Shown piece after piece: positions 1 through 34,545 of a stretch of DNA of 46,898 nucleotides. This DNA comes from Heterotrichella gracilis (lineage: Eukaryota > Sar > Xanthophyceae > Tribonematales > Xanthonemataceae): NCBI GenBank assembly GCA_032358255.1, contig JAULBX010026485.1:1-46898 (forward strand), in the 5' to 3' direction. Under the pieces are notes generated by a model. The model did not search any database. It had not been told where the DNA came from and saw only the letters and a program-made list of their open reading frames with translations. Made by a program: the position numbers and the translations under genes. Every line of letters begins with the position of its first letter. The stretch's first letter is position 1.

Positions 1-1
1 G

Positions 2-4201: not shown

Positions 4202-4292
4202 ATGGCGCGCCACACGCCATGCGGCAGCCTGCTCCTGCAGGCCTGCCTCCTGGTGGCGCTGATTTGTTTGCCCCCCCTGGTCACCCCCCAAG
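4202..4292 (+). other. Exon 1: signal peptide of the giant protein
   Basis: The exon encodes 30 residues plus one base. It starts MARHTPCGSLLLQACLLVAL and continues with a hydrophobic ICLPPLVTP stretch. This is a classic secretory signal: a basic residue near the start, a leucine/valine/alanine core, and small or polar residues near the likely cleavage site. The donor is AAG|GTGAGC in phase 1. The start ATG has a G at +4. This is why I place the gene start here rather than at an upstream ATG. Confidence 0.75.
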
Positions 4293-7200
4293 GTGAGCGC
4301 TGCACCTCGGCAAAGTGTGGGGCATGCCTGCAGCTAGTGGACGTGCGGGTTTGTGTGTATCAACCCATGTGCCTATGTTCAAAACCTATGTATCAGTGTA
4401 AGCACTGCATGCACAGCAGGGCAAGGGTGGGGGTACCAGGGCTGAAACGGGATTGAAGGGCGAAGGCAGGGGTGCGCGGCACGTGGCAAAGTGGTTGCGC
4501 TGCGGATGCACACCAGGCATGCATGTATCGGGCAGAATCTGTACCTATGTCCCACACAACCAAAACTTTGCCCTCGCCCTGACCTCATACCCCGCAGGTA
4601 TCAAGGTGAGCAGCGATGCCACCTGGCACGGCGCGGGCGGCGGGCTGTGCGGCAGGTTTGAGCTGCAACTAGCGTGCGCACCTTCCTGCACCAAGGGGTG
4701 TGAGCTCGATATATCAGATGCGGGGAGGACGCGCGCCACGTACCAGGTCTTTCACCAGGTGCGCTCCCCCTGAGGGGCAGAAATGGGTACAGAACTGGAC
4801 TGGTGTCAGCTCCCTAGTCGTTCCCACGTTGCTTTCTGGGGCACTGTACTGGCAACTTGTTTTTGTCGTCAGCAGCCATACCCTGCTAGGGCATCGGATT
4901 GACAACAGCCGCCACAAACAGCGCGCGTTGGCATGTAATCCACATGCCTGTGCATCCTATGTAGTGCATGCTATTATTGAATGCTCCCCTTGCAGAGTGA
5001 CAGTCTCATTAACAACAAAATTGCTGTGCAGGGCACTGTGCTGGCAACCACCCCCCGCTACTCCCACCTCAGCACCCCCCCAGATGGCCGCATCGACCCC
5101 TCACTGGATTTCCCTGCATTCCGCCACGGGGGTGCAGAGCACTACTCCGCCGCCGGGGTCCTATTCCCCCCTGGCACACACACCCTAAGGGTTTTGGCTC
5201 GTGTGGAGGGCGATGCATCGGAGGGTGGGGAGGGGTGCGCTGTGGTGCGCGCAATGTGCTACTCGCCAGGTAAGCACTTGCTTGCACACCGCGCAGCCTA
5301 AGTTTGCTTTCCCCAAAAAGTAGTGCGCTGCTTAGACTGCAAAATAATTCCAGAAAGTAGGTACATATGACCCTCCACCACCACGCAGGTTCTCCGGCAG
5401 AGGTAGCTGGCCTGCTGTACCGCCCCCAGGGTGCAGGGCTTGTGGTGGACAAAGACCCTACAAGCGCAGCAGCCCAAGTACCGCGGATAACCCACTCCCC
5501 GCAACAGGCCTGGCAGCAAGGCAACCTAGGGTTCCATGCAGAGGATAACCCTAGCAAAGGGTCTGCCACAACCGGGGACGGCGAGTTTCAGGTGTGTGGA
5601 TTGGCACACAGCCGAAACGCTGCTGACTGGTATCCATGTTCTCCACCTGCCATATGCCCATGCGGCGAAGCGAGTGATTGCACTTCTACTGCCATGCATG
5701 AAGAGTGCCGCGCTTTCTTTAAAATTACCATTACAAGCTTTGTTTGAAACGCTTCATTGCAACGTGCAGCTGGCAACGCAAGGGTCCATATCCCATGCGC
5801 TGGAGGGCGCCGTCCAAATGGCGTGGGATGCGTTCAATTTCCGGCCCACCGCCTCCCCTCCCAACCCACACAGCCCGTCCCCTGCCCCGGCTCCCCACCA
5901 GCAACTCAGCCAAGCAGACTCCAACCAGGATCCAAGTGTGAGTGCGGGTGCTGGGCGCCAGTCGCATGAAGCAGTGGTTTCCGCGAGAAATGCTGCCCTG
6001 GCCCCGCCAGTAGCAACCCTGCAGGCGGAGGGTGGTTCGCCTGGTGCCGATGTGGCGCAAACACTCGCCAGCCAGCAACAGGCAGTGCGCATGGACTCGC
6101 CTGGCCCTGCCAGCTCGCAGGATGTGGATTCGCCTGGCCCTGCCTCCGCCTCCGCAGCGGTTGAGATTCCACCTCTGCAGGACCAGGAGGCCGCAGTGCA
6201 AGCGAAACCACTCCAGGAGGTGGGTTGGCCCCCGCATATGACTGTATATTACAGAAAATTTTCAAGCTACATGTGTTCACACAAAAAATGGAATCTGCTA
6301 TGTTTCTCGCTGACTTAGTTATCTTTCGTCTGGTGACCCATCTGGCACACCACAACATCTGGTTACATTAAATGCACTCTTAAGCCACACGCCGCTGCCA
6401 GCACCATCACACATGCACAATGGCCACCCCATCCCCTGATCCCCACATCGCTCCCCTGCAGGCTTCGCCCCTGCTGGGGCCACTGCAAGCCCACCTCGAG
6501 TCAGCACAGGCGCTTGTGAGGGGCCTGTTCCGCACATGGGGCGGGTCACCCACCACCACCACCACCACCACCACCACCGCCGCCACCACCACCACCACGG
6601 AATCGGTAGCAGACGGGGGCATCGGCCAGTTTCGCGATCCCGCTGTAGCAGCTGGCAATGCTTACGCGGGTGGTGACAGCGGTGGCATGGAGCACCCGCT
6701 GCTGGAGCCCGCGCACCTTTCTCCAAGGCAGGCGCTGGCAACGGCGGGAACCACCATGGCACCCACCACAGCCACCACGACCACGACCACCAGCGTCGCC
6801 AGCGGTGGCGGCGCATCAGCCGGGTCGGTATCCTCCGGCGCCGCGCAAGTGCGCGATACAGCAGCGGACCAGCTGCGCAACCCTGGTGCAGCAGCTGGCA
6901 ATGCCTACGCGGGCGGCGACAGCGGCAGCATGGGGCACCCGCTACTAGAGCCTGCACACATGGCGCCCAAGGAAGCACTGGCATCTACCACAGCAGGCGT
7001 CGGTGCATCCGCAGGCCAGGCTAGCGAGGGGCAGGGTGCGGATTTGGTCCCGTCCGGCATGGGCGCCGACCACTTGCGTGACCCTGGAACAGCAGCCGGC
7101 AGTGCTTATGCCGGTGGTGACAGTGGCAGCGTGGGACACCCGCTACTGGAGCCTGCACGCATGGCGCCCAAGGAAGCCCTGGCAAGCGCAGGGACCATTA

Positions 7201-10200
7201 GCATCTCCACCTCCACCTCCACCCCCACACCCACCATCGTCGGCGGTGTCGGCAGCGCATCAGCGGGGTCGGTATCCACCGGCGCTGCGCACTTGCGCGC
7301 CACAGCCGCATACCAGCTACGAGACGCATCCTCAGCTACTGGCGCTGCGTATGCCGGCGGGGATAGTGGCAGCATGGGGCACCCGCTACTGGAGCCAACA
7401 CACATGCCGTCCAGGGATGTCATGGCAACTGCGGGAATCACAGCCACCACCACACCCACTCCCTCCACACCCATCATCAATGACAGTGGCAGCACATCAG
7501 CTGGGTCAGTATCCTCCGGTGCTGGGCAGTTGCGGGACCCAGATCAGCTACGAGACCCTTCCTCAGCGGCTGGCGCTGCGTATGCGGGCGGGGATAGTGG
7601 CAGCATGGGTCACCCGCTACTGGAGCCAACACACATGCCATCCAGGGATGTTATGGCAACTGCGGGAATCACAGCCACCACCACAACCACTACACCCACA
7701 CACTCCATTCCTACCATCACCGGCAGCAGCAGCGCATCAGCAGGGTCGGTTTCCTCCGGAACCGCAAAAGTGCGTAACCCAGCAGCGTACCAGTTGCGCG
7801 ACCCTTCCTCTGCGGCTGGCGCGATGTATGCGGGTGGGGATAGTGGCAGCATGGGGCATCCACTACTGGAGCCTGCACACATGCCGTCCAGGGATGCGTT
7901 GGCCACAGCCTCTGTTACCGCCACCACCAGTACCCCCACCGCCACGCCCAATATACCCACCACCAGTGGCAACGGCAGCGCATCAGCGGGGTCGGTATCC
8001 TCCGGCGCCGCGAAGTTGCGCTACATAGCCTCGGCCACCAGCCACCAGCCACCGGTGGTGCTGCGGGTGAATGGGGAGTGGTGGGGGGGTGAGAGTGTGG
8101 GTGAGCCGGCAGGGGGCGTGGATGCGCTGGATTCGGATCTGTGCGGCGAGTTCAGGGTGGAGATCCAGTGCTCCTGTGCGAATGGATGCCTGCTCGACGT
8201 CACAGGTGGGAACAGGTTTGGGGTGGTGACTTGCGTTGAATTGTGGTTTTACTTGCAGCAAGCCTAGCCTCACCAGCAGTGGTTCATGCGGCATTGCCAT
8301 GTGGCAGCTGTGGATAGGGGTGGCGGGTGTGCGCTAGGACCGCTGGATGCATTCCTACTGGGGCACAGGGATGAGGCCCAATAGGAAGGGTGTGGGATTG
8401 AGGCATTGCTGTGATATGCCCTTTGCTGTTGTTCAAATAGCAATCTAGGCTTGCTCATTCATAGTTGTTGCATCAGCCAGCTCCACTGTCCTCCTGCTGT
8501 ATCTCTCCCCTCTGCTTCACCCCTTTCCTCCCCCGCTGCAGACTTTGGAGCCCTGCGCAGCTTCTTCGCCCTGCGCAACGTTTCCGCCACCCCCACCCCC
8601 CTGGGCTCCACCCCTGTGTACCCCGACCCCATGGTAGGGGCCTCTGGGAAGGTGCACCCCCTGCGGCATTTCCCCGCATTTGGGCCCACCACGCCCTCCT
8701 TTGTGGGCGGGTACCACTACAGGTACGCTTGTCTGAAGCATGCGCTTCTGCCAACCTATTATTGATGTAGCTTCCTTATTGCATGCCTGCCAGGATAGGA
8801 AGTGCCCTGCCCGGGAGGTGAATGTGGTTTACAAAAACTGCTGGGCAGTTTCAGCTCGGCACTGTTATGCTGCTGGGGATTTCGCCCTTGCACCGCCACA
8901 TTGTCCTCCCTTCCAGTCCTAAATCAAGTTGCAGACCCTTACTTGACCCATGGCTGCCTCCTGTGGCCACTGGGCCTTCCCGTGCATACCACTAAACAGT
9001 TTGCTCAATTCCTTGTTGCAGTGCCAAGAGCTTCCCCCTGCCAAGAGGGGAGCAGGTAGTGGAGGTGACAGGGACAAGCATGCTGACCCCCGCCGGTGGG
9101 AAATACGAGGCACCCCTGGAAGCCGCCCCCTCTGCATGTGCGCTCATCAGGGCAAGCTGTTCCCCTGCACCAGGTGAGCTTCCCAAACCCTGGCCTGGGC
9201 CGTTGGCCCTTACAAATACAACTGCCCCTAGAAGCTGGCTGCTCATAGTGTGTGGCAATTTGTGCAACTTATGCCTCGGCCCCTGGATGCTATTTCCCCA
9301 GTGGTGCTGGTGCTGTCAGCAGATTGCCTCAACCCCCACACCACCCACCTTCGACTCTGCACACTCCATCCCTGCATGCATTACAGTGGTGTTCAGCCCA
9401 TCACCCCTGTATAACCCCTGCAACGCGTGTGCCCACTGCCCCTCCCCTGCCCCTCTCCCAGTTGAACCCACCCCTGGCGGCGTCTTCACTACCTCACCAG
9501 AGACCCTAGCTAGGGCCCAGGAGGCAGCAAGGGAGGCGGCGCTGCGTGTGGCAGACGGGGAGGTGGACCATGCCTCCATCCCGGGGATTGGGCTGGGGGT
9601 GATGCACGGGGATGTAGAGGTGTTCCGCTACGACGCCGCCACCCACCTGCCCGCCTCGTTTTCAGCGCTGCTCCCCCAGGGGGGCAAGGGAGTGGCTGTG
9701 GCGGCTGGAAAGACCAGCACCCCGGCTGTGGTGGAGCACCCTGCTTTTGAGGATGAGGAGGAGGGCGCAGATGGTATGCAGTTCTTGCTCCTGTCGGCAG
9801 CAGAGTGGCAAGACCAAGCCGAGCTGATGTCATTCCAGGTGGGTGAAATCCCCTCATTCTCCCCCCATCAGTGTGTACATTCTTGTGCTGAAAACGTGAC
9901 TCCACCTTGACTGAACCAGGACACTGCAGCCATTCCAACCCTTGCACCGCCTAGGCAGTGCGCCCAACACCCTCCACCCACAGCTGGTGCAGGACGCAGT
10001 TCAGGCAAGGGTGCTCGTAGGGTAGAGGTTGAACCCGCTCCTTGTCACCCCCACTGAGCCCCCCGCCCCTTTCCCGCAGGCTGTTGAAAAGGCCATCCGT
10101 GCGCAGGACAAGCGCGTGGCTGATGCCCAACCAGACCAGGTGCCGGAGGCAGGGGGCGCGACACAGAACGTTACGCACAAGGGTGAGACCCCTGCCAAAG

Positions 10201-13200
10201 CACCCGCAGTGCCTGTATGCATCCGTATGCCTGCGCCCGTGTTCTTTGAATGCACTAGAGGCACTGCCACACGCTACCCTACCAAACTTGACAGGAAAAA
10301 ATGTACCCAAATTTTACTCTAAGATGCGAGAGGAATTAATATTTCTCAGCATTCCCTGACCAACCCCTTTCAATAGAACTTCCAAAGCCCAAACCAGGCC
10401 CCACCAAACTCGCTCAACGCTCTCTGCAGGAGTGACTGTCACTCAATACTCACCGCACCCGCATGGGTTGGCGGATGGTACCACACCACCCCTGCCCCTG
10501 CCCCCCCCGCGCAAACCTCACATGGAGGGAGTCATGTCGGCATTCAAAGCGGGTGCCTCAAAATCTTCGGTGGGTAAAAAATGATGGGTGTGGGAGGGGA
10601 GAACTGCTGCGAAGTAGCTGCGATATTGGTGGAGGCATGCATGCATCCACGCCTATTGCAATGTCAGTCACTGGCACAACATTTGCATGACCAAGCTTCT
10701 TCAGAAATTTGCAATGGCAGCATCTCCCATGTGCGCTTGTAACTCTGAAAGTAAACCCTTCTCCCCCGCCCTCCCCCTCAGGACACGCACCGCCTCTTGA
10801 TCAGAGACTCACCTGCCCGCCAGATGCACACGTTGCACATGGCGCACAGTGCGAGCGAGGCCAGGGGTGTGGACCTGGGGGACGTGCTGCTGGGCGCTGA
10901 TGTGCAGGTGCGGGGAATGTGGGTTCTTCGCAGCGTGGACGGTGATAATGTAGTGTGTTTTTAGTGGCAGGCCAGATACGTGTGCTGGGCAAAATTAAAT
11001 GGCACAAACACATGGCGTCCCTCAAGCAAGCCCACTGTGGGGTTGCATTGGCACCCCTTGCACCCCAACAGCCGTTGAAGGATGCTCGTGTGTGAAGCCA
11101 GTGCCATTGCGATAGCATGATATAAACATGATCCACAGGTATTACCGAGCAGACACCACTCATTGTGATCAAACCCTCCCGCATGGTTGCGTTGCTGCCC
11201 CATTCTTGCCCCCCGTCCGCCCTACTTTCAGCATCGCTGACGCACATTTTCCCCCCTGCCAGGTGGTGAGCTATGGACCAGCTACTGGGGAGCCAGATGG
11301 GTCCCTGGGACTGTTGGCAGCAGACCTCAAATACCGACAGGTGGCGGCCACGCAGGGGCCCACCACACCACGGGTAGGGTTTAGGGCTTCTGGGGAGGGT
11401 TGCCAGGGCTTCTCGGGAGTCCTCAAGGTGGATGATGCATATGTGCATGCATTAGATGCTCCCACTCCATGCGTAAGAATTTAGGGTTTTTGGAAAAGGG
11501 TGGAGGTTTGTTGGGGAGGGTGTGCCCACGGGCAGAGGGGATCTTGGGTATGTGGAGGAGGTCTTACAAATGTGGTGTTCGGTAGAGGTGTATGGAGCAC
11601 TTGGCATGCAGCGCAGTTGTAGTGTACCAGGCGGAGTGCTGGGTGGATAGCCACAATGGCCACTTGATGCCGCAAAGGCCTCTTGACCCCTCACACAACC
11701 TTTGCGCCTCTCCCAAGAAAGCTGAATCCCATCAACCGCACCCCCTCCCTGCAGGCGAGCCCCCCATCCCAACCCCCAGCTTCATCTTCACCCGCCACTG
11801 GCGCCGTGGCTCAACCCCCTCTGGGACCTTCCCAGGGACCCTCCCCGGGACCCGACGAGGATGAGGAGGATGATGACAAGGACGATGATGAGGACGATGT
11901 GAACGACGTGGCGCTGCTGCCTGCCATCGACGTTGAGGACGACGAGGAGATGCTGCGGGCGCTGCAGGCGGAGGGGGTGTCGTTCCACTATGTGGACGCC
12001 AGGGTCCCTGCTCAGGGGCCTGACACCCTCCCAGGGACCAAGGAGAGCAGCTCCAGTCCCCTGAAAAAGCGGGGCGGCACTGGTGCCGGCGTGGTGGTGG
12101 CGGCAGGCTCATTCTCTGGCATGCATGCGCCTTCAGAGCTGGATTCTGTGCTGCGGGATAGGATGGCGGCGCATGCCGCTACCGGCGCTGGCCCCCAAGG
12201 GTACATTGATGAGCGGGGGCTGCTGACGGTTTCCTCGGGGATGCCGGTCAAGCGTGTGGAGTCCCCAGGCAGCACCCAGGCTGGCGCTGTTTCGGCTGGC
12301 GCTGTTACAGCTGGCGCTGTTACAGCTGGCGGTGACTTGCCTGGCGCTACTGCAGCTGGGGCTGGTACGCCTGGGGCTGGTACGCCTGTCGTGGAGGAGC
12401 CCACACCCTTGGCCGCTGCTGCGCTGGCGATGGAGAAGGGACTCCTGGTGCGGAGGGGTGGAAACCAAGGTTCTGAAAAAATAAAAAATATATTGCATAA
12501 CCAAAATCAATGGAGATGAGATTTGATTAGGATTTAATTAGTAGCTACTGTGGGGTAATTTTGAGGAAAACAAACTAGCAGGTGTTCCACTTGTGATCTG
12601 CATCGTTGGCCAAAGCAGCCACCACATCCCCTGCCCAATGGGGCAGCAACCTGAACCCACATGGCATTGACGCTTGCCCCCTCCACGTGCAGGACTATGC
12701 GGCGGTGATCGCTGCCAACCCCGACCTCACCCCAGACCAGCTGGCAGAGTCCCAGATGCTGTTCCGAGGCGCCGCCATGGTGGCCACAAGGCTGCGCTCA
12801 CACGCAGGGCTGCCTGACATTGCCACACCGCAAACCCTGGCAGTGCCAGTGGCCCAACCCGTGAGGAGGCGTGCCATGGAGGTGGCGGGCGGGGCGTTCC
12901 ATGTGGGCCAGGTTGATCCAGCTCGCGCGGCGCAGCTGTCGCATGCGCTGGATGCCGCCATTGCAGCCGACATGGGCATGCAGGCGGGGGCGGGAGCCAT
13001 GGCCGCCAAGGCGTTCACCGCATCACACCCCGAAACCCCAGTCTCACCTCCCCCTGCATTCCGCATGGCGCCCGCTTCTGCTGCGCTTGCCAGCGAGATG
13101 GCGCAGGCTCTTGATTCTGCCATGAAGGCCGATATTGGCATGCAGGCAGGTGCAGGAGCCATGGCCGCAGCGGCTTTTGCCACCAAGCAGCAGCAGCAGC

Positions 13201-16200
13201 AGCAGCCACCACCCGTGGCAGCCGAGCCTACTCCCACCGTGGAGCGCAGCGTGCTTGAGGTCCCTGCTTCAGTCCAGCACGCAGCCCTTGCCCATGAAGC
13301 ACCACATGGCACTGTCACCCAGCCCACCGCCCAGCGCCAGGCAGAGCTGTCGCATGCGCTGGATGCCGCTATTGCAGCGGACGTCGGCATGCAGGCGGGG
13401 GCGGGGGCGATGGCCGCCAAGGCGTTCACCGCATCGCACCCAGAGACCCCAGTCTCACCTCCCCCTGTCTTCCGCATGGCGCCCGCCACAGCTGCGCTTG
13501 CCAGCGAGATGGCACAGGCGCTGAATGGCGCCATGAAGGCCGACACCGGCATGCAGGCGGGGGCAGGGGCTATGGCCGCAGCGGCGTATGCTGCTAAGCA
13601 ACCACCGCGAGACGTCGCGGGCGATGTTCTCTCGTCCAGCCTCTCTGACAGTGCACTGCCAGCAGAGGATGGTAGCCAGGCGGGCTCAGACCCCACTGCG
13701 GTGCAAGGTGGTTTGGATAGCATGGGTGCTGGAGGTGTGCATGACGTGCTTGAGCTCCCCCCCAGCCAGCAGTATGCGGCGCTGGCCAAGGACGCCCTGC
13801 AGTTCAAGAGTGTGCAGCCCGGTGCTGAGCTGCGTGCCGAGCTAGCTGCTGCGCTGTCGGATGCGACAGTCGCTGACACCCGCCTGCATGCGGTGGGGGG
13901 CGGGGAGGAGGAGGGGGTGGCGGGAGGTGAGTGGGGTGGCAAGGAGTTTTGGGAGGCCAAGGTCTGATTTGCTTGCACCTGTGATGTTGCTTTTGCCGGC
14001 AGTGTGTATGTGGGGCATGGCCTCAACATGCAAGGCATGCATGCTTAATTTAGGTTCTTGTATTCCAGCACTGCAGCCAGAATGGTTGTCAGTTCTGCAG
14101 AGCGCACGTCATGTTAATCAAACGATGCTTGACCAAGTTGTGAGGTGCCACTTGTGTGGACGTGAATGTGAATGGAGGCCAAGTTGGTTGTTTTGATGCT
14201 GCTTGCAGGCCAAGGGGGCGTGCACCGATCAATGAAGCTGGAGGCCAAGCAGGCGCTGTCGTCTGCGGCACTGGCGTCTGAGGTGGCGGTGCGTGTCCAA
14301 AACCCTGTGGGCGCACACATGACCCTGCATGGATGCCCACTCTGGAACCCTAGGCCCTCAACCTGTAGCAAATAAAGGACCGTTGGCACCTAATCATCCG
14401 CATGTGACAAAATATTTGCATCCCTCAGCTAATAAGGGGTATCCCCACGCCCTTCTTCATGCAAGAAGACTGCTGAGTATTTGAACTCTGCTTGCTCGTC
14501 AGTCACAATCACAGGACTGACTTGCTTCCTAGTGAATATGATACCTCATGCGATTGTCACAGTGTACTGAACCCTGTGTGTGTCCTGTGCAGGAGGCGCT
14601 CCAACCCGCCAAGACCAAAGATGACCAACTGCCGCCCACCACCACCACAGCCACAGCCACAGACACCACCACAGCCACCACCACAACCGAAGCCTCAGCC
14701 ACAGCCACAGCCACAGCCATATCCACAGCCACAGCCATAGCCACCATGCCCACGCTGGGGATGTCTTCCCAGCTGCCGCACGATGTGGTGCAGCAGCCTC
14801 TCCCCATCAGGTCCATATTGCCGGGCGACATGGACCACCAGGCCCTGCAAATGTCCTCGAAATTGCCACACGACATCCAGGACGCCCCTCTCGTTGTCGC
14901 CTCTACCCTGGCAAGCAACGTGCAGCAGCTACACATTACACCGCCTGGCCCCACGAGGGCGGAGGTTGCGGGTTTGATCGTGGGTGTTGCGGCGCCTGTG
15001 GAGGATCTTGAGGTGCACGACATCTCCGGACTGATTGAAGAGGTGCCGTCAGAGGGAGAGGTGCGCTGGACCCTGCCTCCAGGAGGAAACCCTAAAACCT
15101 AAACCCTGAAAAGAGTTAGAAGTAGCCTAGCCCCCACATCATCTGGGCAAAATCTGCTGAATGCCTGTTGGCGCGCATACCGCAGTTTGGGTATATGTTT
15201 GGTCAATCAATTCTCAACACATCAGGCAACCTCGTGCAAGGCGGGTCTCACACACGCTTGCAGCGTGGGGCCTGGGTGCCTGGGTGCACTCGGATGGCGG
15301 GTGAAAGGCTCTGGGCTGGGTACCTGCACTTTGCTGTGTGTTGTCGAGGGGGCCATGGCTGTGTGGGAGTACATGGCACAGTTGGAAAGGGGGCACCTTT
15401 GAATGGTCTCCTCTGATCCCGAGTGTGAATGGTTCCAGGAGGTTGCTACCACGCCCACCTCCCCACCACCAGCCGGCCCCGCCTCCCCAGCCGCCACCAC
15501 CCCACCAACCCATGCCCTGCCAGCCGATGCCATGTCACCTGCCCAGGCAGCGCCAGCAAACCTCCAGCCAACAGCTGCAATCCCAGAATCTGGTCCCCAG
15601 CCAGAACCTGTCCTCCCAGCTATCCCAGCACCCGATCCCCAGGTTCACACACACCTGCTGCCGCAGCAAGTTGCTGCACTGGCCGCTGCTGCGCAGTCCC
15701 TGGGTGAGCAGGCAAGGGAGATGCGAGCGGTGGTGGAGGGGAGGAGAGGGGAGGTGGCGGACATTGACCACAACATGCTGCAGGTGTGTGCGCGAACAAC
15801 CCCTGTACCCCTACCATAGGTGCCCTGAAGGGCGCATGCGCGGCGCCTGTGGTGCAGGTTTTAGTTGCTTATGGGTGTGCAGTGCCATGCTGTATGCGAA
15901 ACACATGCCAGGAATGTTGTGGTGTTTTAAATGGCCAACTAATGCTGTTACAATTCAATGCAGTGGTATGGGGAGGCACTGGAGCTGTGATAGGCATGCA
16001 CACCAAGTTGCATCCGCCCCTGCGCCTGGCTCCAACTGGTGGTGTGCATTACTGTAGCGCCACCCTGCCCTTGCAGACACGCAGGCATCCTGTAGGGCTC
16101 GATAGCTCCCCTCTGCCAGCGCAAAACCCTAAACCCTAACCCTGATGCCCCTGTCCCAGGCTGCTGCGGAGCTGACCGAGAGGCTGCTGGCGCATGCTGC

Positions 16201-19200
16201 GGAGCTCAACCAGGGGGTGGTGCAGGTGCGGGAGAAACCCTACTGAAACCCTACCATTAGTATGCGTAGGTTGTGGATAATGATTACTTACTACTAATCA
16301 CACACTTCAGGCTGTGCAAAACAGGCAGCATAGAAGGCTCGTAACCCCACAGAAAATCTTAAACCCCATGCACAAACCCCTTACCAGCGCCACCATGTGT
16401 AGGTGCAGCCCGCCTCCACCCCCACCACCTCGGCGGGCACAACAACAGCCACGCCATCCCCGGCACCCAAACCAGCTGTGGACAGCAACACAGAGGTGCC
16501 TGCAGCACAGCAAATAACCCCCAAGCCTACTGCGCACAGCCCTGCTGAGGCACCCCTGGTGGCGCAGTCCAGGCCCGGACCCCCCTCGGGCTCCTCCCAC
16601 GGCGCCGCTGTGGCCAGCACGTACGGTGTGGGTCCCCGGGGTGCGGCGCGGTCCGAGTCTGTTGGCCAGTTCCTCATCAAGCTGCGCACCAAGCAGGTGG
16701 GTGGGGTGATCGCATGCATGTACTGCAGTGTGGAGAGGGGGCGGGGGTGGGTAAGGGGCTGCAGTGCTGGTTTGTTGGGGCTGTCCAGAGTGTGGGTCGT
16801 AGGGTGGGGGAAGCAAAGGCGTGGGTGGGTGCAGCAGCGATGTTCTGGGGGCGTTTTGAGCTTGAGGGGTTTAAATTATAAGCTCCTCTTATGAGTCAAA
16901 TAATATGTTCAGTTCTGGATATTGTTGAAATTATGGGCGTTTTTTTGTGTATTGATTTTTTGCCCTGATTTCTTTCCCAGGCGCACCACACCATGCGCGG
17001 CGGCCAGCCCCATCTCTCCTCCGGCGCCAGCACCGCTGTTGACCCTGATCCTGAGGACCTGGTGGCGCGGCCAATCTGGAAGCTGGATGATGGCACGGTG
17101 GAGAAGGTGGGACAGGAGTTTCCTAGAGTGCTCATACCTACCCCCTTTGGAGGGTAGACGCTGCATCGATCAGGATTCCTGTCCTTGCATGACACTCCCA
17201 ATGTGACTACATTTTCTACATGGCCAGTCCTCGCCCAAGGATGTTAGCATGGGACCCTGCCGACAGGACCTCGTTTTATGATCATAGACCCTTCCACCCT
17301 TGATGACATTGTCTGCGCAGCTCATCCCCTCCCCTTCTGCCCACCCTCCCACCCACACGCATCTGACCACATTTCCCCCAATTCAGGATGCGGATGCCGA
17401 TGCGCTCCCCCACACCATCGGCGGGGTCTCCACCACCCTGGATACATTCACAAAGTGGTACAAGGCGGCGGTGGTGGGGCGCACATCGCCCCCCGCCGCC
17501 CCGCCCTCCATTTCCACTGACGCACCCCCCTCGCCAGACCCTGCGCTCGCCCACGCCATGCGCCTGGCGGATGAGCCAGGGGGGTTGTTGGACGATCTGG
17601 TTGCGCCGGCGGGGCAGGTGTTAGCGGTGGATGATGGGACAGTGCCCCAGGTGAGTTGTCAGTGCTCGGTATCTAGGAATATGGTTTCAACGCGCAGAGG
17701 GTACCCATGCCAAAGGGACAGCAAGCAACTTGCCTGCAGCATATGAAGCGCTTTGGAGACTTTGAGGTCGTTTCAGTATGGCAGGACGTATGTACTTCCT
17801 TGCTATGTGTGACCTGACCCCACTGTTGGCTTAATGCGTGCACATGGAGCGGGCAGAGCCCTGTACATCCGCCGGTACACCCAGTTGGCACAACAGAGCA
17901 AGCCCCAGCAGGCACATGCATTCCACCTTGTCGTCAACATACCTTTCCCCCCTTGCCCCCAGGAACCCGCTGACGACGAGCCCTCTCACACCATCGGCGG
18001 CGTCTCCACCACCCTGGACACATTCACAAAATGGTACAAGGGGACTGTGGAACGCAGCGCACTGCCCCCCGCCGCCCCCACCCCCACACCAGTGCCCCAG
18101 CTGCCCGGTGTGGATGGGGGGGAAAGGGCGATGGCGCACACGCGCAGCCTGAGCGCTGCCCAAGGGGGGCTAATGGACGACATGGTGGTGCCGGTGGCCC
18201 TGCCAGTGGCGGTGGATGATGGGACTGTGCCACAGGTAAAAAAACTAGCGCAAAACCCTTGGTGGGAAAAGCCATCCTCTAGTCCCAAATACTGAATCCA
18301 TAAGTATGAATTGCATGTGCCCCATAATTGTAAGCTGCAGTGCTTGATGCTTGGCAGCCCCAAGGGTGCCTTGCCGCCCATGCCCCTGGCTACCACACCT
18401 TGTATGCCCATCACAGACAGGACCTGGCATGGCCATCCAGTCACAGGTGAAAAGCAACCTCTCCTTCCTTGGCCAAACCCCCTTCCCACCTCTCCCTCAG
18501 GAGCCCTCGGATGACGAGCTCTCCCTCACCATTGGGGGTGTCTCCACCACCCTGGACACATTCACAAAGTGGCACAAGGAGAGCCTGGGAACCCACGACC
18601 CGCCCCTTGCCGTCCCCTCCACCACCGGCGCTGACGTTCCCACCTTGCTGCCACACGCGCGAGAGGAAGCCATGGGCAGTGCCCAGCGCTTGAGCGCTGC
18701 GAGTGTGGGTGTGGCTGATGATGTGGCGGTACCGGTGGCCCTACCGGTGGCGGTAGATGATGGCACAGTGCCACAGGTAAGCTTTTATGTTTGCATTCCC
18801 ATGGAAAACCATGGCCTCTCCACCCCTGATGACCCACCACCACCATGGTTGGCGGCTTCCATCATCTCTCGATTATGTGGGTTATGAGTGGCTTCAATTC
18901 CCTTCCCATGAAACACCCGCGAACCTGTCATTGGCATTGACGTACGTTCCTCCCCCTTGCCCCCAGGAACCCACTGACGACCAGCCCTCCCACACCATTG
19001 GGGGCGTCTCCACCACCCTGGACACATTCACAAAGTGGCACAAGGCGGCGGCGGTACTCAACGTACCAACCTCCGTTGCTGCTGATGCGCCCCCCCTGCC
19101 AATTGGAGATGCGCAAGGCCGGCCCACAGTCCACTCCCGCAGCCTGAGCGGGATTGGTTCGGAGGGTTTGGATAGGGTTTCTAGCGAGGTGCCGGCGGAT

Positions 19201-22200
19201 GTGAGGGACGCCGTGCAAGGTGAGCCGTTGTTGCCTAGGTGAAGAAGGGAAATGCTGTTAAGGTTCATGAAGCGACATGGCTGTGCATGGCGCCGTTCAA
19301 AATTGCGACGCAGTGGGGTGGATCTGGCATATATTGCGAATATTCGGTAGGATTGCCTCTGAGGGTTTGGATAAGGGTTTTGAGTTCGTAGGGAACTATA
19401 TGTGCATGCGTGCACCAACCTGCATGGTTCACCCCAACCCTTGTGTCCTGGCATTGCCCTCACTCCCCATGTAATCCCCACACCCACTCCGTGCAGATGC
19501 TTCCACCGATGGGCAACCACACGGCGCCACCTCAGCACCAACCCAGGTGGAGCCCATCGCTGAGAGTGAAGCGGTTGTTGCACCGGGCCAGACAGGTGGG
19601 GTGACACGCAACACCCTAAACCCTAACCCCTTGCATTCTCTGTGGGGCAACCCAGGGATTGCACCTTGCACCCAACCAGTCAGGTGTGGCCACAAGCATC
19701 GCCTGTGGAGAATGTGCATCCACACACCTGCACCACCAGCAACAATCAATGCTGTAGGCACTGCTGCATGTGCCTTGTGCATTTGTCCTCATCCTGCATT
19801 GGCATGGCTGCCGGCCGTGGCTCCCAGATGGCGGCTTTCCAGGCGGCTGTGAGTGACGGCTGGAACCTACGTAGCGAGCCAACCAACTCACAGACCCACT
19901 AGCCGACTGACTATGCTCTTTAAAAATGTTCACTTACTTGCATGGAGATATAAAAGAACGCTCCAAGCAGTCAGCAAATCAACCGCCATGCCCACTGTTT
20001 GCCAGCAGATGACTCTTCGCTCCACGACATTGCTGTCGCCTCGCATGCACCCACCGCCATGGCTGGCGGTGACCCCACTGCTGACATGGCGGCCATGCTT
20101 GAGCGCATGGAGAAGCAGCTAGTGCAGGAGCCGCAAGGGGCAGAGGGACTGGCCACCGACTGGGACGCACAGGTGCGGGGCAGAAATAACATTGTTGTTG
20201 TAATATGTTTGTGTCGACAGTGATGCCTGGCTTTGAAAACTGAAAAAAGTTAGAAATGTAATGGGTGTGGCGCCTTGTGTGGGAGGGACGCGTGCGGCAA
20301 TGATGATTGATTGCCAGTCACACGTGCTGTATCGTGGTTTTATTCTGCCTGGCGGCGCAGGCAGGGGTTACCCACTGGCGTGTGCAGATGCTATGCAGTA
20401 ACACTGGATGGCCAAAACAGCTTAAAGTGGTGATGAATGCATCCTGAAGGTTTCTCCCTTGCTGCAGTTCTCTAAGGATGCTGCCGCAGCCGCCACAGCC
20501 GCTACTCCCCCTGTTCCCTCCTCCCCTAGCCCTGCGGGTAATTCGCTCACCTTGCCGCCAGAGCCGCCTAAGCAAGGTGGGTCCTGACACACACCACTGT
20601 TTGATTGAGTTGGTCCTGCAGTGGTGCTGAAATAGGGGCTTGCAGAAAAGGTGCAAATTCAAACATGTTTCTGTATTTTTGGTGTGAAGAGGACCATGTG
20701 GTATTTCTATCATAATGAAATAAGATGGCTTGCTTATACCATGGATCCCCTTGCAGGCATCCACCCCGCAGCAGCGCACCTTGCCCTGGACGACCTGCAC
20801 GACGTGCTCTACTCCGTGCTGGCCGCGCACTTCAAGGCGCTGCCGCAACCCCAGGAGGGGTCAGGTTTGGCCCATGGCTCCGCGCACCACGACGATGTGG
20901 CGGCTGCGGCGGTGGCTGTGCAGCAACGCCTGGTGCAGGAGGCACTGAAAGGTAGGGGGGGATGGGATGAACCAGAATGAGTAGGAATAAATTTGATTTT
21001 GAAGTTGATTTGATTGCTGAAATGTGTGGCAGGCGTCTTTTTGGGGGGGATTGCATCATGCATTTGTGTGCACGCTGGTTGCCTTGTTTGTTGTTCGTTA
21101 GTGCTATTTTCCATGGACTGTTTTGTTGCTGCTCAAGTGCGTTCACCGCTTGCCATTGATTTCTCTATGCACTATTCTCCAATACCTTTCTGAGTCTCAT
21201 TGTTCCCCCACTTTGCAGCGCCTTCAGCAGAGGCGCCGGCACCAGGGGCACTGATGGTAAGCACCCCCTTTTTCACCTCCCTGCTCCTGGTTGCATCCAT
21301 CATCATCAAATAATGCATGCTGCATGTCCATGATGCCTTGTGCAAAATCCACCCCCTGCTTTTTTGCATGTCGCGTTGTCTGGCTTGTTTAGGGTAAGTC
21401 ATTGTTTAGGGTGAGCCAATGTTCATGGTAAGCCTAAGCTTAGCCCCAACCTGTCCACTTACCACCCAGGGTGGCTCTCTGCCCACGTCACCACCACATG
21501 CAGTTGAGGCCCTTGCACTCCTGTTAACCCACACCCTGCTGCCATGCCTCATTTGAACCTGTACCAGGCATTGTGAACCCTACACCCCAATCCACAGTCC
21601 CTAACTCCCGCCACCCACACCCTGCAGGCCGCCAAGGAGTGGCTGGCAGGCCGCGTCACCGACATGCTGCGCGCACGCAAGGACACCCAGCTGCGGGCCG
21701 CCTATGCCGCAGCCCACGGGAGCCACGTGTCCCTCTCCGACGGGCTGGAGTTTGAGATCCAGGAGTGGCCCGCGGTGCTGAAGGACCTTGAGTCGCTGCA
21801 CCTGGGGGCAGAAGTGGAGGAGAGAGAGGCAAAGGTGAGGCCATTTAGGACCCTATGTTTCGCCCCCAATGGCACAGGAGGGCTGGGCTGACTGATGATT
21901 AGTCCCATGCGCTCCTGCAGTGCAGCCAGATTTCTTAAAACTTGCACAGTTGTCAGCTGAACATGTATCGGTGTCTACAGGACACTGATAGAGAAAAACT
22001 CCACAATTGTTCGAATCCCAGACCCCTTCACTCCTGTTTCACCCACCCCATCATCTGGCGCAGGTTGAGGCGATGATCGACTCGCGGCTGAGCTTCAACG
22101 GCAGGCTGAGCGGTGAACAGGCGGCGGACCTGGCGCCCAAGGGGCAGGACCTCAAAAAGGTGGGGAGGGGACACAATGCCCATGGCAATTGAACACAACC

Positions 22201-25200
22201 CATGGCGTTGGCAGGGAGCACCAGCTTGGTCATCTACACGCGGTCTGTGCCTGTGGCTAGCACACTATGATAATAATGTAAATATGTTTTATAATAAAAT
22301 AACTACTAAATCTTATATTTATTCACTTTTATTCTTCTGATGCTAAAGCGTGCCTGGCTAATACCGCTGCCCCGGCCCCTCCTTTGGCTATCCAGGTGAA
22401 CCTGGTTGAGTTTGAGTCTGAGCTGGGCCACCTTGCCCGCCTGACCCACCTGCAAGGCTGGGACAGCGCCAAGGGGGAGGTAACACTGGAGCCGCTGGAG
22501 GAGGTGCCGGAGCCACTGGACGCACCAGGTAGGCTACTGCAGGGTAAACTGGACAGGGCACGTACACATCCACTTCTAGATTAGGGAAAGGGTTAAGGGT
22601 AGTATATAGCTACTGCTTGTAGCAAGGCTGGCACAAGCCTTGTCCAGGGCTTTGCAGGGTTGCCATTGCACTACGCTGCTTCAGCATCATGAGGCTATCA
22701 ACCAGTATTCAATGCAGCGCCCCGCGCCCTGCCCATATGCTATGGGCTCCGGCCCTCACCAGCCGCAGCCAAACGCCAGCCCCACCCACGCCGCCCCTCC
22801 CATATGTCCAGGCACCGCCCTCCCCCCGGGGGCCACCCGCCAGCGCCCCTCCGTCCAGCGCAGGGGCTTGGACGACGTCACGGAGTGTGGGGACTGCAAC
22901 TACGGGTTCCCCTCCCCGCCCCCCGCCCCCCCCACCCCCCCCTCGCCCCCCACCATCGTGGACGACTACCCCATCCTCATCGCCGACACCCTTGTGTCCA
23001 TCAATCCCAGCCTGCCCCCGCTGGTGGTCAAGTTCCCGCCCATCAACCTGCCATCGCTCAACCTGGTGCGGCCACAACCACGCTGCAAAAAATAGAAAAC
23101 AAACAAGAATCAAGACCCTGAACCCTGCCATCTGTTAACAGAGTAATAGTAATTATTATTGCTATTCACATAGCAAGCCAGCTGTGGACAGCCTAGGACC
23201 TCTGAGAAGAAATCGACCCCGCGCCTTGTCAACTTGCATGCTTGCACCCACGCCCATCACCACTGCCCCACCACCGTGCACACACGCATGCTCACCCCGC
23301 CCCCTTCCCCTGCTTCCCCAGCCCACGCAGCTCATCATCCCCCTGTCGGGGATAGTGCCTGTGGCGCAAGCCCCCTCGGAGGAGTCCGCGCTGCGCCTGC
23401 TCAACTCCATCAACGCCAAGGGGGTCAAGGCGGTGCAGCGGAGCACGCAGAGCGTGATGCGCAGGTGGGGGGGTGGAGCCAGGGTGCTAGGGTGTGGGCT
23501 GGGGGTTTGAGCAAGGGCGGCGCTCGACTAGGGTCAGCATCGCAGGCTGAGTGCGGTGCAGCAGACGCACAGAGTTTGCTGCGTGGGTGGTGCGTGTGGG
23601 TTTAGGGTTTGGGTCATGGTTTGTGGTGCCTAGGGTTTGGTTTAGGGTTTAAACAAGGATTGCGGCGCCTAGAGTTTGGATCTGTAGGTTCTGTAAAGGT
23701 GGAGTGTGAGGAGATTTGCTTGAGGATGCTGGGCACCCCCGGAGGCAGGGTCTGCAGCACACATGCTCGTCTGCCTGGGTTTCGATCCTGTACAATCCCC
23801 TAACCCTCGCCTCCATTTGACTGACACCTGCCCCACCCGTGCCTCAGCCCCCAATCCACCACCCCCACCGAGCCAGTGGGTATCATCATCACCCTGCCCA
23901 CCACAACCCAGGAGGGCACTGTGGACCTCAGCGTGCTGGGGGTGCCCAGCATCCACATCCCAGTCATCCAATCGGTGAGCATAGCACGCACCGGTGCACA
24001 CCCTTTTCGGAGTTGAAACCCTTTGACTCTGAACCCCAGCAACAAATTTCAATTGCAGTGCATCCTGCTAAGGGAAGTCGTGGAACTGAGGGTATGGCAG
24101 TTTGAAACACCTACACTGCCGATGCCCACACCTCAACATTCCACAACACCCCATTCTGCTGCTGCCTACCTGATTTTACTGCACACACACCTTCAACCCC
24201 CCTCTCCCACAAACCGAACCCGCCCCCCCGCGCCACCATCATCGCACCATCGCTTGCCCGCAGATCCCCTTATCATCCCTCTCATCAAAATCTGCTCTTA
24301 CTTCCAACACCCCATTAAAGTACCCACCCACCCACCCACCCACACTTCTGTCCCTGCAGCTCAACGTCACCATATCGGTGATCGATCTCCAGTACTCACC
24401 CATCCGGGAGGTCAGGTCGGCCCCCCTCACAGACCTCAACGCCCCGCCACCCCCGCCACCCCGGCGGGGGGTGGGTGACGCCATCAAGAATGTGGACCGC
24501 ACGAACATACTAGTGACAGACGACACACAGGTAGGAAGGGATGGAGTCGGTGGCTGGGCGGTTGGGCTTTGGACCACGGTTTGCCAGTGTGCTGAAGGTG
24601 GAGTGAGGTGCATTGCAACTGTGGTGCTGCCTTGGGGGCAAAGCTGTGTTGTGGCAGGGTGCAATTGCTCTGGATGGGGGGTTGCTCACGTGGTGCTCGC
24701 ATGGGTGCAGGAGGCAACTCTTGACGCCTCACCGCCGCCGCCGCCACGCAAGAAGTCCCCACCACCACACAAGAAGTCCCCGCCACCACACAAGAAGTCC
24801 CCGCCACCACACAAGAAGTCCCCGCCACCGCACAAGAAGTCCCCACCACCACACAAGAAATCCCCGCCGCCACACAAGAAATCCCCGCCGCCACACAAGA
24901 AATCTCCGCCACCACACAAGAAGTCCCCACCGCTAAAATCCACCAAAGCCACCCACCACCCACCACCACCCAAGAAGCACAGCCCGATTACAACCAAGTC
25001 CCCACCGCCCGCCAAGTCAATCACTAAACGCCCCCCACCCCATGTGACGACCCACAAACCACCACCCCACATGAGCCCCAGGAGGGCGTCGCCACCCCCT
25101 CCGGCCACCGCCAAGCTCCGCCCCCCACCCCGTCGCCCTCCACCCTCCACCACCCGCAAAACACAGGCTGCTGCCATCAGCCAGCAGGGGTTGGGAGGCA

Positions 25201-25556
25201 CCAGCACCCTCCAACGCGCCACAGCCAGTTTACCCGCACAGGCCCTGACACTGGGAGCTGGATTAAGTCCGGAGCTTGCTAATGCGCTGCCTCAGATTTC
25301 ACCGGCGCCTGACTCCGGAGGAGTGGGGACCTCTGGTGGGGACTCCCCAAGCCCCAGCCCCATCCGGAAAATTGGGCCTGGCGCACCCACACACCTACCA
25401 CCACCACCGGTGCCCGGGGGCCCACCACCACCGTCACCGCCACTGCCGCCGCCATCACCGCAACCAGCACCACCACCATCGCCACCACCAGCACCACCAC
25501 CGCCAGCGCCGCCGCTCACCCCACCAGCACCGCCAGCGCCGCCCTCCCCAAAATGA
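4202..25556 (+). CDS. Giant mosaic secreted cell-wall/ECM protein (about 3,708 aa, 40 exons)
   Basis: I could chain 40 exons from an ATG with a signal peptide at 4202 to a TGA at 25554-25556 without breaking reading phase. Of the 39 introns, 26 are phase 0, 11 phase 1 and 2 phase 2. Exon coordinates are in the block entries that follow. Order in the protein: signal peptide; six-cysteine module (residues about 31-175); linker; YAGGDSG repeats (about 465-940); second six-cysteine module (about 945-1085); acidic and alanine-rich regions (1086-2049); LPHD and coiled-coil exons (2050-2482); four duplicated exons (2483-2837); mixed helical exons (2838-3184); hydrophobic/proline domain (3185-3427); extensin-like tail (3428-3708). 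No transmembrane anchor is evident after the signal peptide. I recognise no named family for the whole. A structural extracellular-matrix role is inferred from the signal peptide, cysteine modules and SPPP repeats. Splitting into two or more genes cannot be excluded without transcripts. Confidence 0.7.
4598..5269 (+). other. Six-cysteine module, copy 1 (exons 4598-4758 and 4996-5269)
   Basis: Residues about 31-175. Key positions are LCGRFELQLAC, then C-x3-C-x3-C, a glycine-rich hydrophobic stretch, the motif FPAF, a P-G-x-x-x-L-R-V strand, and a closing CAVVRAMC. It matches the second copy at 8028-9173 in cysteine order and in C-x8-C and C-x6-C spacing. Alternating hydrophobic residues suggest a disulfide-bonded beta-sandwich, perhaps binding sugar or matrix. 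I cannot assign a named family. Confidence 0.6.
5389..6219 (+). other. Linker exons d-e (5389-5591, 5770-6219)
   Basis: Residues about 176-393, joined in phase 0. The first exon is polar and rich in Gln, Asp and Gly. The second begins with an amphipathic stretch, SISHALEGAVQMAWDAF, and then becomes a Pro/Ser/Ala/Gln-rich linker containing DSPGPAS twice. The SHALEGAV string recalls the SHALDAAI strings of the alanine-rich repeat block at 12693-13926, so this may be a single outlying unit of that block. No enzyme motif is seen. Confidence 0.6.
6462..8205 (+). repeat. Large exon with poly-threonine tract and six YAGGDSG/HPLLEP repeats
   Basis: One 1,744-bp exon entered in phase 0 after CCCCTGCAG. 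A run of ACC codons (about 6548-6599) gives a poly-Thr tract. Six repeat units follow; their YAGGDSG motifs start near 6663, 6906, 7107, 7350, 7581 and 7827, so the period is 201-246 bases (67-82 residues). Each unit has a leucine-arginine-asparagine/aspartate-proline start, an A-A/S-G-x-x-YAGGDSG core, GHPLLEP, a helix-like MPSRD or MAPKEALA stretch, and a Thr/Ser/Pro spacer ending SASAGSVSSG. Spacers are likely O-glycosylated. The last part of the exon (from about 8028) starts the second six-cysteine module. Confidence 0.7.
8028..9173 (+). other. Six-cysteine module, copy 2 (end of exon f, exons 8542-8722 and 9022-9173)
   Basis: Residues about 945-1085. It holds LCGEFRVEIQC, then C-x1-C-x3-C, the HFPAF motif, a phase-2 junction at 8722/9022, a P-x-G-E-x-V-V-E-V strand, and CALIRASC. 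The order of all six cysteines, the FPAF landmark and the final C-x6-C match copy 1 at 4598-5269. The intron after the first half is at a comparable place but in a different phase, so the duplication is old. The 336-bp intron 8206-8541 holds no recognisable feature. Confidence 0.6.
9462..11373 (+). other. Exons i-m: helical and mixed region
   Basis: Exons: 9462-9838, a tentative 27-bp micro-exon 9984-10010, 10080-10182, 10430-10569, 10782-10907 and 11263-11373 (donor GTAGGG; an in-phase alternative donor lies after 11340). Residues about 1086-1380. The first exon has an alanine/glutamate/arginine helix (ETLARAQEAAREAALRVADG), then a glycine-rich beta-looking stretch and an acidic EDEEEGADG cluster. 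The others are short, polar and histidine-containing. No family is recognised. Introns 10183-10429 and 10908-11262 show nothing notable. Confidence 0.55.
11755..12447 (+). other. Exon o: acidic cluster and Ala/Gly/Thr repeats
   Basis: A 693-bp exon (231 residues, about 1381-1611), phase 0 at both ends. A Pro/Ser lead is followed by about 20 nearly unbroken Asp/Glu/Lys residues (about 11857-11910). Then come a mixed segment with MLRALQAEGVSFHYVDAR and a low-complexity run in which AGAVTAG-like units repeat (about 12280-12390). The acidic cluster could bind calcium, a common feature of matrix proteins, but there is no formed EF-hand loop. The donor is CTG|GTGCGG. Confidence 0.55.
12693..13926 (+). 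repeat. Exon p: alanine-rich GMQAGAGAMAA repeat block
   Basis: A 1,234-bp exon (residues about 1612-2022). After a 60-residue lead beginning DYAAVIAANPDLTPDQLAE come four copies of a helix-plus-motif unit. Two read SHALDAAIAAD(M/V)GMQAGAGAMAAKAF. The alternate copies read SEMAQAL(D/N)xAMKAD(I/T)GMQAGAGAMAA. They are arranged as two long A-B pairs, with ASHPETPVSPPP and FRMAPA joining A to B. A degraded fifth copy ends the exon (AELAAALSDATVADTRL). A CAG run near 13188-13203 gives a short poly-Gln. The alternation of an amphipathic helix with an alanine/glycine run loosely recalls the seed maturation (SMP/LEA) domain. That similarity is only by eye. Confidence 0.65.
14209..17106 (+). other. 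Exons q-v: LPHD repeats, Thr/Ala tract, coiled-coil-prone exons
   Basis: Exons: 14209-14288, 14593-15060, 15439-15783, 16160-16225, 16403-16696 and 16981-17106, all phase 0 after the first junction. Residues about 2023-2482. The second exon starts with a Thr/Ala tract from ACAGCC-type codon repeats and has two MSS(Q/K)LPHD motifs (near 14764 and 14851). The third is Pro-rich, then turns helical (QQVAALAAAAQSLGEQAREM). The fourth is a pure 22-residue helix (ELTERLLAHAAELNQ). The fifth is a Ser/Pro/Ala linker. The sixth ends in KLDDGTVEK, which resembles the VDDGTVPQ end of the four duplicated exons that follow. Introns 15061-15438 and 15784-16159 carry telomere-like motifs. Confidence 0.6.
16124..16143 (+). 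repeat. Interstitial telomere-like motif (CCCTAAA)
   Basis: AACCCTAAACCCTAACCCT lies just upstream of the acceptor of exon t in the giant gene. It is plant-type (TTTAGGG) telomeric sequence, only two to three units long. Similar short runs occur at 15090-15106, 19613-19630 and 23599-23650. Confidence 0.8.
17387..19219 (+). repeat. Four tandemly duplicated exons (IGGVSTTLDTFTKW repeats)
   Basis: Exons 17387-17650, 17963-18235, 18501-18776 and 18967-19219 encode four copies of one module of about 84-92 residues (about 2483-2837). Each opens with an acidic D/E-P-x-D-D stretch, then HTIGGVSTTLDTFTKW(Y/H)K (the third copy has LTIGG), a Pro/Ala spacer, an R-L/S-x-x motif, a DD(L/M/V)V-P-A stretch and, in the first three, VDDGTVPQ. 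The first three are symmetric phase 0-0 exons; the fourth ends differently, in phase 1. The polypyrimidine acceptor CTTGCCCCCAG is identical before copies 2 and 4, so intron ends were copied too. This is tandem exon duplication. The function of the module is unknown. Confidence 0.7.
19497..22528 (+). other. Exons aa-hh: mixed helical region
   Basis: Exons: 19497-19595, 20009-20172 (a NAGNAG acceptor allows 20006), 20468-20576, 20757-20951, 21219-21256, 21628-21834, 22064-22159 and 22396-22528. Residues about 2838-3184. Phases chain without break. The segments are mostly helical and charged, for example MAAMLERMEKQLVQE, LDDLHDVLYSVLAAHFKAL and AAKEWLAGRVTDMLRARKD, separated by Pro/Ala linkers. 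The 69-residue exon 21628-21834 looks like a compact helical domain (EFEIQEWPAVLKDLESLHL). No family is recognised. Introns 19596-20008 and 21257-21627 hold short TTTAGGG-like strings; intron 22160-22395 contains an AT-rich patch (22265-22340) of unknown origin. Confidence 0.55.
19613..19630 (+). repeat. Interstitial telomere-like motif (CCCTAAA)
   Basis: ACCCTAAACCCTAACCCC lies in the intron between exons aa and bb of the giant gene, 18 bases after the donor at 19596. Confidence 0.75.
22812..24530 (+). other. Exons ii-nn: hydrophobic beta/proline domain before the tail
   Basis: Exons: 22812-23065, 23322-23464, 23848-23974, 24059-24091 (33 bp) and 24360-24530; phases 1, 0, 2, 0, 0. Residues about 3185-3427. 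The first exon has TECGDCNYGF, a Pro-rich stretch, and VVKFPPINLP. Later exons carry strand-like segments: QLIIPLSGIVPV, VGIIITLP, VPSIHIPVIQ and LNVTISVIDLQYSP. The arrangement of an aliphatic, proline-punctuated domain between two proline runs resembles the first visible exon of the upstream gene (PIITTHITFRLP). I could not place a further exon in 24262-24318, although IIPLIKICSYF can be read there, because its phase does not fit. Confidence 0.55.
23599..23650 (+). repeat. Cluster of TTTAGGGTTT motifs
   Basis: TTTAGGGTTTGGG, CTAGGGTTTGG and TTTAGGGTTT occur within about 50 bases in the intron 23465-23847. Together they form a degenerate telomere-like tract. Confidence 0.7.
24711..25556 (+). 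repeat. Last exon: extensin-like SPPPHKK tail
   Basis: The 846-bp final exon encodes residues about 3428-3708. It contains nine SPPP(H/R)KK-type heptads in a row (about 24739-24930), where CACAAGAAGTCCCC units repeat at 21-bp period. More Lys/His/Pro-rich sequence follows, then a 60-residue Ala/Leu/Thr segment and a final run of PP, SPP and APP units ending PPSPK and TGA. SPPP and SPPPP are known substrates for prolyl hydroxylation and arabinosylation in plant and algal extensins. The strong positive charge would favour binding to acidic wall polymers. A candidate TGTAA polyadenylation signal lies at 25997-26001. Confidence 0.8.
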
Positions 25557-33980: not shown

Positions 33981-34545
33981 GGAACCCAAAAAGCACTGTC
34001 ACAGTGATTTTGATCAGCTGCCTGGCTGATGACTGTCCACTGATCGTATGCCTGCTGGCGCTGGATGGCTAGCTAGCTGCCTGGAACCACTGATTAGCTG
34101 CCTGCTGTCGCTGATTAGCTGATTGTAAGATTATTGATGACTTAGTGGTAGCTGATTGCTAGTACAATTGCTGCGCAAGCTGTCCAGGCACAGCGCTGGT
34201 ACACCTGCAACAGCAAAGCACCAAGCAATCAACCGATGGGCACACATCCAGCACCAAATAGCGCAACCAGTGGCTATCTGCTGTACGCGGAGTGTCTGCG
34301 GCTACAATACCCATGCACACTGGTGTCCGCCACATGCAGGGCCGCCCACCACATCGATGACTCCCTAGGACTGTGACTGATGCTCTCACAATCCCCCTGG
34401 GCTGCATGCTGGCAAGGTACAGTTGCCTCCCCAGTCGAAACCTGTGTCCTTTTCCATTTACTGCATTGTTTCTTTCTTTAAAAGATCCCTATAACATCCC
34501 ACAACTCCCCCCTTCCCCACCTGTGCGACTGCCCTCCCCTCCTCT
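33981..34545. other. Intergenic: SNRNP27 upstream region and COA6 3' flank
   Basis: No gene is seen. Near 34090-34130 the strings CTGATTAGCTG and GCTGATTG recur several times as a low-order repeat. This 565-bp gap must include the SNRNP27 promoter; no TATA box was identified. Confidence 0.4.

Follow-up and report, generated by a model that had tools for sequence, protein, structure and literature searches.

The window analysed here is a stretch of 46,898 nucleotides (contig JAULBX010026485.1), and on its forward strand, from 4202 to 25556, it carries what is best explained as one gene for a giant secreted hydroxyproline-rich glycoprotein (HRGP) of a chlorophyte alga. The protein would be of the long chimeric extensin sort, with a likely role as a scaffold of the wall or matrix; we hold this explanation as a whole with moderate confidence. 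A sequence-only reading of the window had proposed a giant mosaic secreted protein, possibly a scaffold. The HRGP type is well supported by the sequence, while the scaffold role is reasonably suggested by the leader, the SPPP tail and the composition.

The gene model (4202..25556, + strand) is an in-phase GT-AG chain from an ATG at 4202 to a TGA ending at 25556 with no internal stop. It consists of 38 exons and 37 introns and contains 11,115 coding bases for 3,704 residues, spread over about 21,000 bases. The in-phase chain of the sequence-only reading was thus recovered, with somewhat lower counts than its 40 exons and about 3,708 residues. Dynamic programming, with coding score and donor and acceptor sites as its terms, gave the chain; boundaries were then corrected by hand where the codon table, which had been trained on pieces of this gene, skipped proline-rich exons or took a weaker acceptor. 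All 37 introns have the form GT...CAG, with lengths of 119-413 nucleotides, and retention of 35 of them would break the frame or introduce a stop. The G+C content was 66% in exons and 53% in introns, the intron figure being from a slightly earlier model.

As the chaining program always returns some chain, forced chains were compared as a control. The codon table for this control comprised 1,097 codons from three paralogous genes and none from the giant gene, and the splice weights were set by hand. With the retrained table the giant region reached a score of 775. Elsewhere up to 12 start and stop choices were allowed, the best of which gave 146 on the reverse strand, and in the rest of the window 70 on the + strand and 109 on the - strand; three first-order Markov shuffles scored -1.9, 7.9 and 9.6. 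Since the paralogs also carry proline-rich codons, some effect of composition remains in this coding-score control. The coding score was positive in 36 of the 38 exons. The retrained run returned 39 exons, shared 10,402 of the 11,115 coding bases with the 38-exon model and reproduced 23 of the 38 exons exactly; the outline of the exon set is thus secure, though not every single boundary is.

Exon 1 (4202..4292, + strand) encodes a hydrophobic leader, MARHTPCGSLLLQACLLVALICLPPLVTPQ, at about residues 5-29, and is followed by a phase-1 intron. The best 19-residue hydropathy mean was 2.34 in the leader, compared to 1.62 anywhere beyond residue 40, which agrees with the single signal peptide placed at the front by the sequence-only reading. 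This leader would direct secretion. A six-cysteine module occurs twice behind it, at residues 31-176 and 921-1085. Module 1 is encoded by exons 2-3 (4598..5269, + strand) and would be a symmetric 1-1 unit, since its flanking introns are both in phase 1. Module 2 occupies the end of exon 6 together with exons 7-8 (approximately 8043..9173, + strand). The whole protein has 18 cysteines, 12 of them within the two modules.

Beyond the giant's contig, the module was found at C747, C301 and C61, three further loci of this genome, each with a leader exon, a phase-1 intron and the module. The searches covered 68.5 Mb in 903 contigs and scored only the best candidates, so that diverged copies may be missed. 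All six cysteines are invariant in the five aligned modules, as are W, CGxF, GC, D, TP, PA, CA and R positions; the six-cysteine modules named by the sequence-only reading are thus present in two copies and recur elsewhere with every cysteine kept. The intron between leader and module lies in phase 1 and in the same codon in all four genes. An intron after D[VI]T is in phase 1 in module 2 and in the C61 paralog, and one after the terminal proline of the module is in phase 1 in four of the five modules (giant modules 1 and 2, C747 and C61). These shared positions, which were read from splice signals and not from transcripts, support the model start and the exons of the modules without recourse to codon statistics.

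The paralogs differ from the giant in that one module was found in each, compared to two, and the middle repeats of the giant were not found in C747, C301 or C61 at significant E-values. The C61 paralog resembles the giant further in its SPPP-rich tail. In the stretch C61:119500-126640 this gene extends over about 3578-7141, with the leader from 3578 and one six-cysteine module from 4423, and its long SPPP-rich tail runs off the contig end. For the C747 gene only directly read exons were used, as the automatic model was poor and its second exon had lost the N-terminal half of the module. The search that matched the C747 middle to the YAGGDSG block (E 7e-6) was run without low-complexity filtering or composition correction, and its result was not relied on.

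The module matched no Pfam family (E up to 1 for the giant copies and up to 10 for the paralogs) and no PDB chain, either by single sequence or by profile. None of 69 candidate stretches in viral contigs was confirmed as a relative. Two further candidates in the genome were not accepted, C189 (E 0.58) after inspection by eye and C90 at E 0.12.

Between the leader and the tail, several repeat families were counted. Part of exon 6 (6462..8042, + strand) contains six YAGGDSG...HPLLEP units, 67-82 residues apart, with Thr-rich spacers. Two copies of an 87-residue unit with 86% DNA identity and two GMQAGAGAMAA motifs each lie at 12924..13600 (+ strand). Four exons carry IGGVSTTLDTFTKW and are called IGG exons here. 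The first three copies (17387..17650, 17963..18235 and 18501..18776, + strand) are in phase 0 on both sides, while the fourth (18967..19219, + strand) has a diverged 3' half and exits in phase 1; a 15-residue core, TIGGVSTTLDTFTKW, is unchanged in all four. The YAGGDSG, GMQAGAGAMAA and IGGVSTTLDTFTKW repeats of the sequence-only reading are therefore real, with six, four and four copies. LPHD, which it had also listed as a repeat family, occurs just twice, both times in a Thr/Ala-rich exon (14593..15060, + strand), and was rejected as a family on this count. An acidic exon (11755..12447, + strand) has an isoelectric point of 4.2, a net charge of -22 and a DEDEEDDDKDDDEDD run, and a non-repetitive C-terminal region of four exons and 232 residues, for which no significant paralog was found, lies at 22812..24530 (+ strand).

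The ratio of nonsynonymous to synonymous change (Nei-Gojobori omega) was 0.10-0.34 for the 15 pairs of 39-codon YAGGDSG cores, with a pooled ratio of the corresponding proportions of differences (pN/pS) of 0.30. For the two GMQAG units of 87 residues omega was 0.14 and pN/pS 0.18. These values point to strong purifying selection on the YAGGDSG and GMQAGAGAMAA repeats. Structure prediction with AlphaFold gave mainly two long helices for the GMQAG unit, at a low confidence (predicted local distance difference test, pLDDT, 58.4), and one helix for the IGG unit (pLDDT 55.8). Both models were too weak for fold searching. The remaining regions of the giant, apart from a few short exons outside the scan, gave only Pfam lines under the curated cut-offs. 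These lines were not relied on: DUF5076 (E 0.024, with a 145-residue query from residue 3047), Glyco_hydro_52 on the GMQAG exon (0.27), and FAM186A_PQQAQ (0.067), New_glue (0.1), Mucin (0.11) and PRCC (0.32) on low-complexity exons. Exact short repeats were observed in coding exons, namely ACC x9 (6552-6578), CAG x6 (13188-13205) and CACAGC x3 (14700-14717). They encode Thr-, Gln- and Thr/Ala-rich runs and are possibly of variable length between strains.

The last exon (24711..25556, + strand) encodes a basic proline-rich tail that ends in PPSPK before the stop. The tail comprises residues 3424-3704 (281 residues), with 36% proline and a net charge of +35. Near its start, at 24756..24923 (+ strand), are eight SPPPHKK repeats with a 21-nucleotide period, as expected from the extensin-like tail of the sequence-only reading. 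SPn motifs (n at least 3) number 16 in the protein, 12 of them in the last exon, and there is one YxY motif. The composition of a slightly longer earlier model was A 15.5, P 12.1, G 8.8, S 8.7, T 8.0 and V 6.5%. The net charge of the whole protein is -133, residues 1086-3423 accounting for -138.

The host is likely a chlorophyte, because the CP26 fragment of the genome scored highest against 7pi0 (306 bits), 6kac (301 bits) and 8bd3 (268 bits), which we take to be from Dunaliella, Chlamydomonas and Chlorella, respectively. Scores against 3jcu and 8c29, presumably from land plants, were 125-132 bits. The host perhaps belongs within the Chlorophyceae.

The protein was compared to known wall proteins as these are described in the cited papers. 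Long chimeric extensins are proteins of more than 2,000 residues with SPPP motifs, reported by Liu et al. (2016) from green algae and not from embryophytes (PMC4769139), and a review repeats this account (PMC10762512). A signal peptide was present in 76% of the extensins studied (PMC4769139), and high-molecular-weight SPn proteins of heterogeneous architecture were described in chlorophytes by Newman and Cooper (PMC3149072). The giant has 3,704 residues, above the limit of 2,000 provided that the gene is one unit, and 16 SPn motifs where the class definition asks for at least two SPPP motifs (PMC4769139). It also has a leader by hydropathy, of a first-exon design shared with its paralogs, and a composition rich in Pro, Ala, Val, Ser, Gly and Thr as given for the HRGP domain of the class (PMC4769139). 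Leader, HRGP-like composition, additional non-HRGP parts and a chlorophyte host are thus common to both (PMC4769139). Hydroxylated and O-glycosylated proline regions also belong to the description of the class (PMC4769139) and are a prediction for the tail of the giant. Unlike long chimeric extensins as described, the giant has a six-cysteine module that matched nothing in Pfam and internal repeats for which the rest of its own genome gave no significant match, and the likeness is to the criteria of the class and not to individual sequences (PMC4769139). Size and motif define the class, so the placement expresses likeness and not descent. A classical extensin has SPPP repeats throughout the mature protein, which differs from the giant with its 12 of 16 SPn motifs in the last exon. 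The claim of the sequence-only reading that no described protein has this layout therefore held in part: the protein agrees with the published definition of long chimeric extensins, and the module family and repeat set look new.

Other known matrix proteins were also weighed. In Volvox and Chlamydomonas, pherophorins make up a large family of HRGPs (PMC9818292). They are matrix proteins of the Volvocales with a leader and with globular and proline-rich parts, and the giant, with its cysteine module, proline-rich region and leader, could be a diverged member whose DUF3707 domain has drifted past recognition. However, DUF3707 appeared in none of the Pfam scans, the modules matched no Pfam family at E up to 1 (giant) or 10 (paralogs), and the proline tail is C-terminal instead of forming a rod between two globular domains (layout as described in PMC9818292). 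PF12499 was not found genome-wide in a search that had no positive control, so that its absence is not established. Membership was rejected on domain (DUF3707/PF12499) and on layout, and this origin is very unlikely. Instead of belonging to the vegetative wall, the single secreted protein could serve in fibres at the surface, for example as a mating agglutinin or in a ciliary filament resembling a mastigoneme; MST1 (PMC11015965) and the mating-type agglutinins (PMC3149072) are likewise large chlorophyte HRGPs. MST1 of Chlamydomonas is a long secreted HRGP with a cysteine-containing region and, near its C-terminus, a proline stretch that forms a glycosylated polyproline-II helix (PMC11015965). 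Its cysteine-rich domain has 26 disulfides (PMC11015965), for which the 18 cysteines of the giant are too few, and the module profile matched no PDB chain; we regard a role of this kind as unlikely.

The long chimeric extensin reading further presupposes one functional gene. Two or three neighbouring genes on the same strand could have been misread as one. One such division would place a secreted six-cysteine protein between 4202 and roughly 12.4 kb and one or two more genes behind it, with the proline tail closing the last of them. The sequence-only reading had already doubted the positions 12450 and 17106, and a same-strand gene upstream has a similar proline tail ending in PPSPK, so that tandem related genes may occur. 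However, no second leader-like hydrophobic segment was found (1.62 versus 2.34), the gaps between exons never exceed 413 nucleotides, and the frame is kept over all 37 introns. The order of parts in the C61 paralog also counts for one gene: its exons, read singly and not chained, gave a leader, a module, a low-complexity stretch and an SPPP-rich tail until the contig end. We consider a division into several genes improbable, and the gene is real and large and probably single, its single status resting on splicing logic. If the locus were decaying or unexpressed and some of its exons fortuitous, this would fit the finding of no significant relatives for the middle regions within the genome, and the weak constraint on the IGG exons. 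Such decay is at odds with 11,115 coding bases free of stops, with the low omega in two repeat families and with the conserved intron positions, and is highly improbable.

Several observations nevertheless weigh against one giant scaffold gene. Exons 5389-5591 (-5.4) and 10430-10569 (-2.0) have negative coding scores, and 15 of the 38 exons were not exactly recovered by the independently trained run, which leaves boundaries uncertain. Searches of the genome with the IGG, GMQAG and YAGGDSG units, and with residues 1086-1389, residues 2969-3191 and the C-terminal region, returned only the giant's locus at significant E-values; weak extra matches were C259 (E 0.96) and C155 (E 0.14). As the middle regions have no significant relatives there, it is splicing logic together with codon score that supports the exons in this part. 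The IGG exons are weakly constrained outside their core (pooled pN/pS 0.68). The internal intron of module 1 at 4758 has no counterpart seen in the other modules, the C747 module has no internal intron, and that of C301 lies near the second intron of module 2 in a different phase. The similarity of the giant C-terminal part to the C747 paralog ('VVKFPxIN') was not significant (E 0.05), and the scaffold role is based on composition with no domain assignment.

If the long chimeric extensin reading is correct, the protein may work as follows. The six-cysteine module at the N-terminus and its second copy after the Thr/Ser-rich repeat block, both in the first third, would be binding heads for wall partners, presumably held by disulfides. 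The acidic low-complexity spacer (residues 1086-3423), built in part from tandemly duplicated units, would provide a hydrated flexible reach. The SPPPHKK/proline tail would be hydroxylated and O-glycosylated and form a stiff polyproline-II rod, a form made plausible by the glycosylated helix of MST1 (PMC11015965). The basic tail may anchor the molecule, either on acidic polysaccharide or on the acidic parts of molecules next to it. The binding partners, like the disulfides and any cross-linking, are proposed here by inference only.

Two other parts of the window were inspected. The region 1-1350 (+ strand) is the 3' part of another same-strand gene, with cysteine-containing exons and a PPPTRK/PPPPTHK proline tail, and its last residues before the stop, PPSPK, are identical to those of the giant. 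Its cysteine exons had no Pfam match above the cut-off; an SCRL line on this gene (E 0.084) was below it and was not relied on. The upstream gene and the giant possibly form a small cluster of matrix-protein genes. At 32557-33998 (- strand) there is an RDRDRE-rich reading frame near a frame holding DADITPEEIQMMQAMGIPF, which resembles a motif of the U4/U6.U5 small nuclear ribonucleoprotein 27 kDa protein, a likeness that we take as tentative. Neither frame had a Pfam match.

The kind of protein is known; the family of six-cysteine modules and the particular repeat set look new. A more speculative proposal, which we consider possible and rather doubtful, is that the module founds a separate family of matrix proteins in the algal lineage of the host, doing the job of the pherophorins in the Volvocales. 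The giant would then be its master scaffold, arisen through acquisition of another module and through tandem duplication, both of exons and of units inside an exon, and acidic spacer and basic tail would cross-link molecules head to tail. Apart from those of the volvocine model algae, few matrix proteins of chlorophytes seem to have been catalogued. Being compact and having clear paralogs, the cysteine module offers an entry point for finding the wall-protein family of the host lineage, and the giant would illustrate how a very long matrix protein can be made by phase-0 exon duplication and in-frame repeat expansion.

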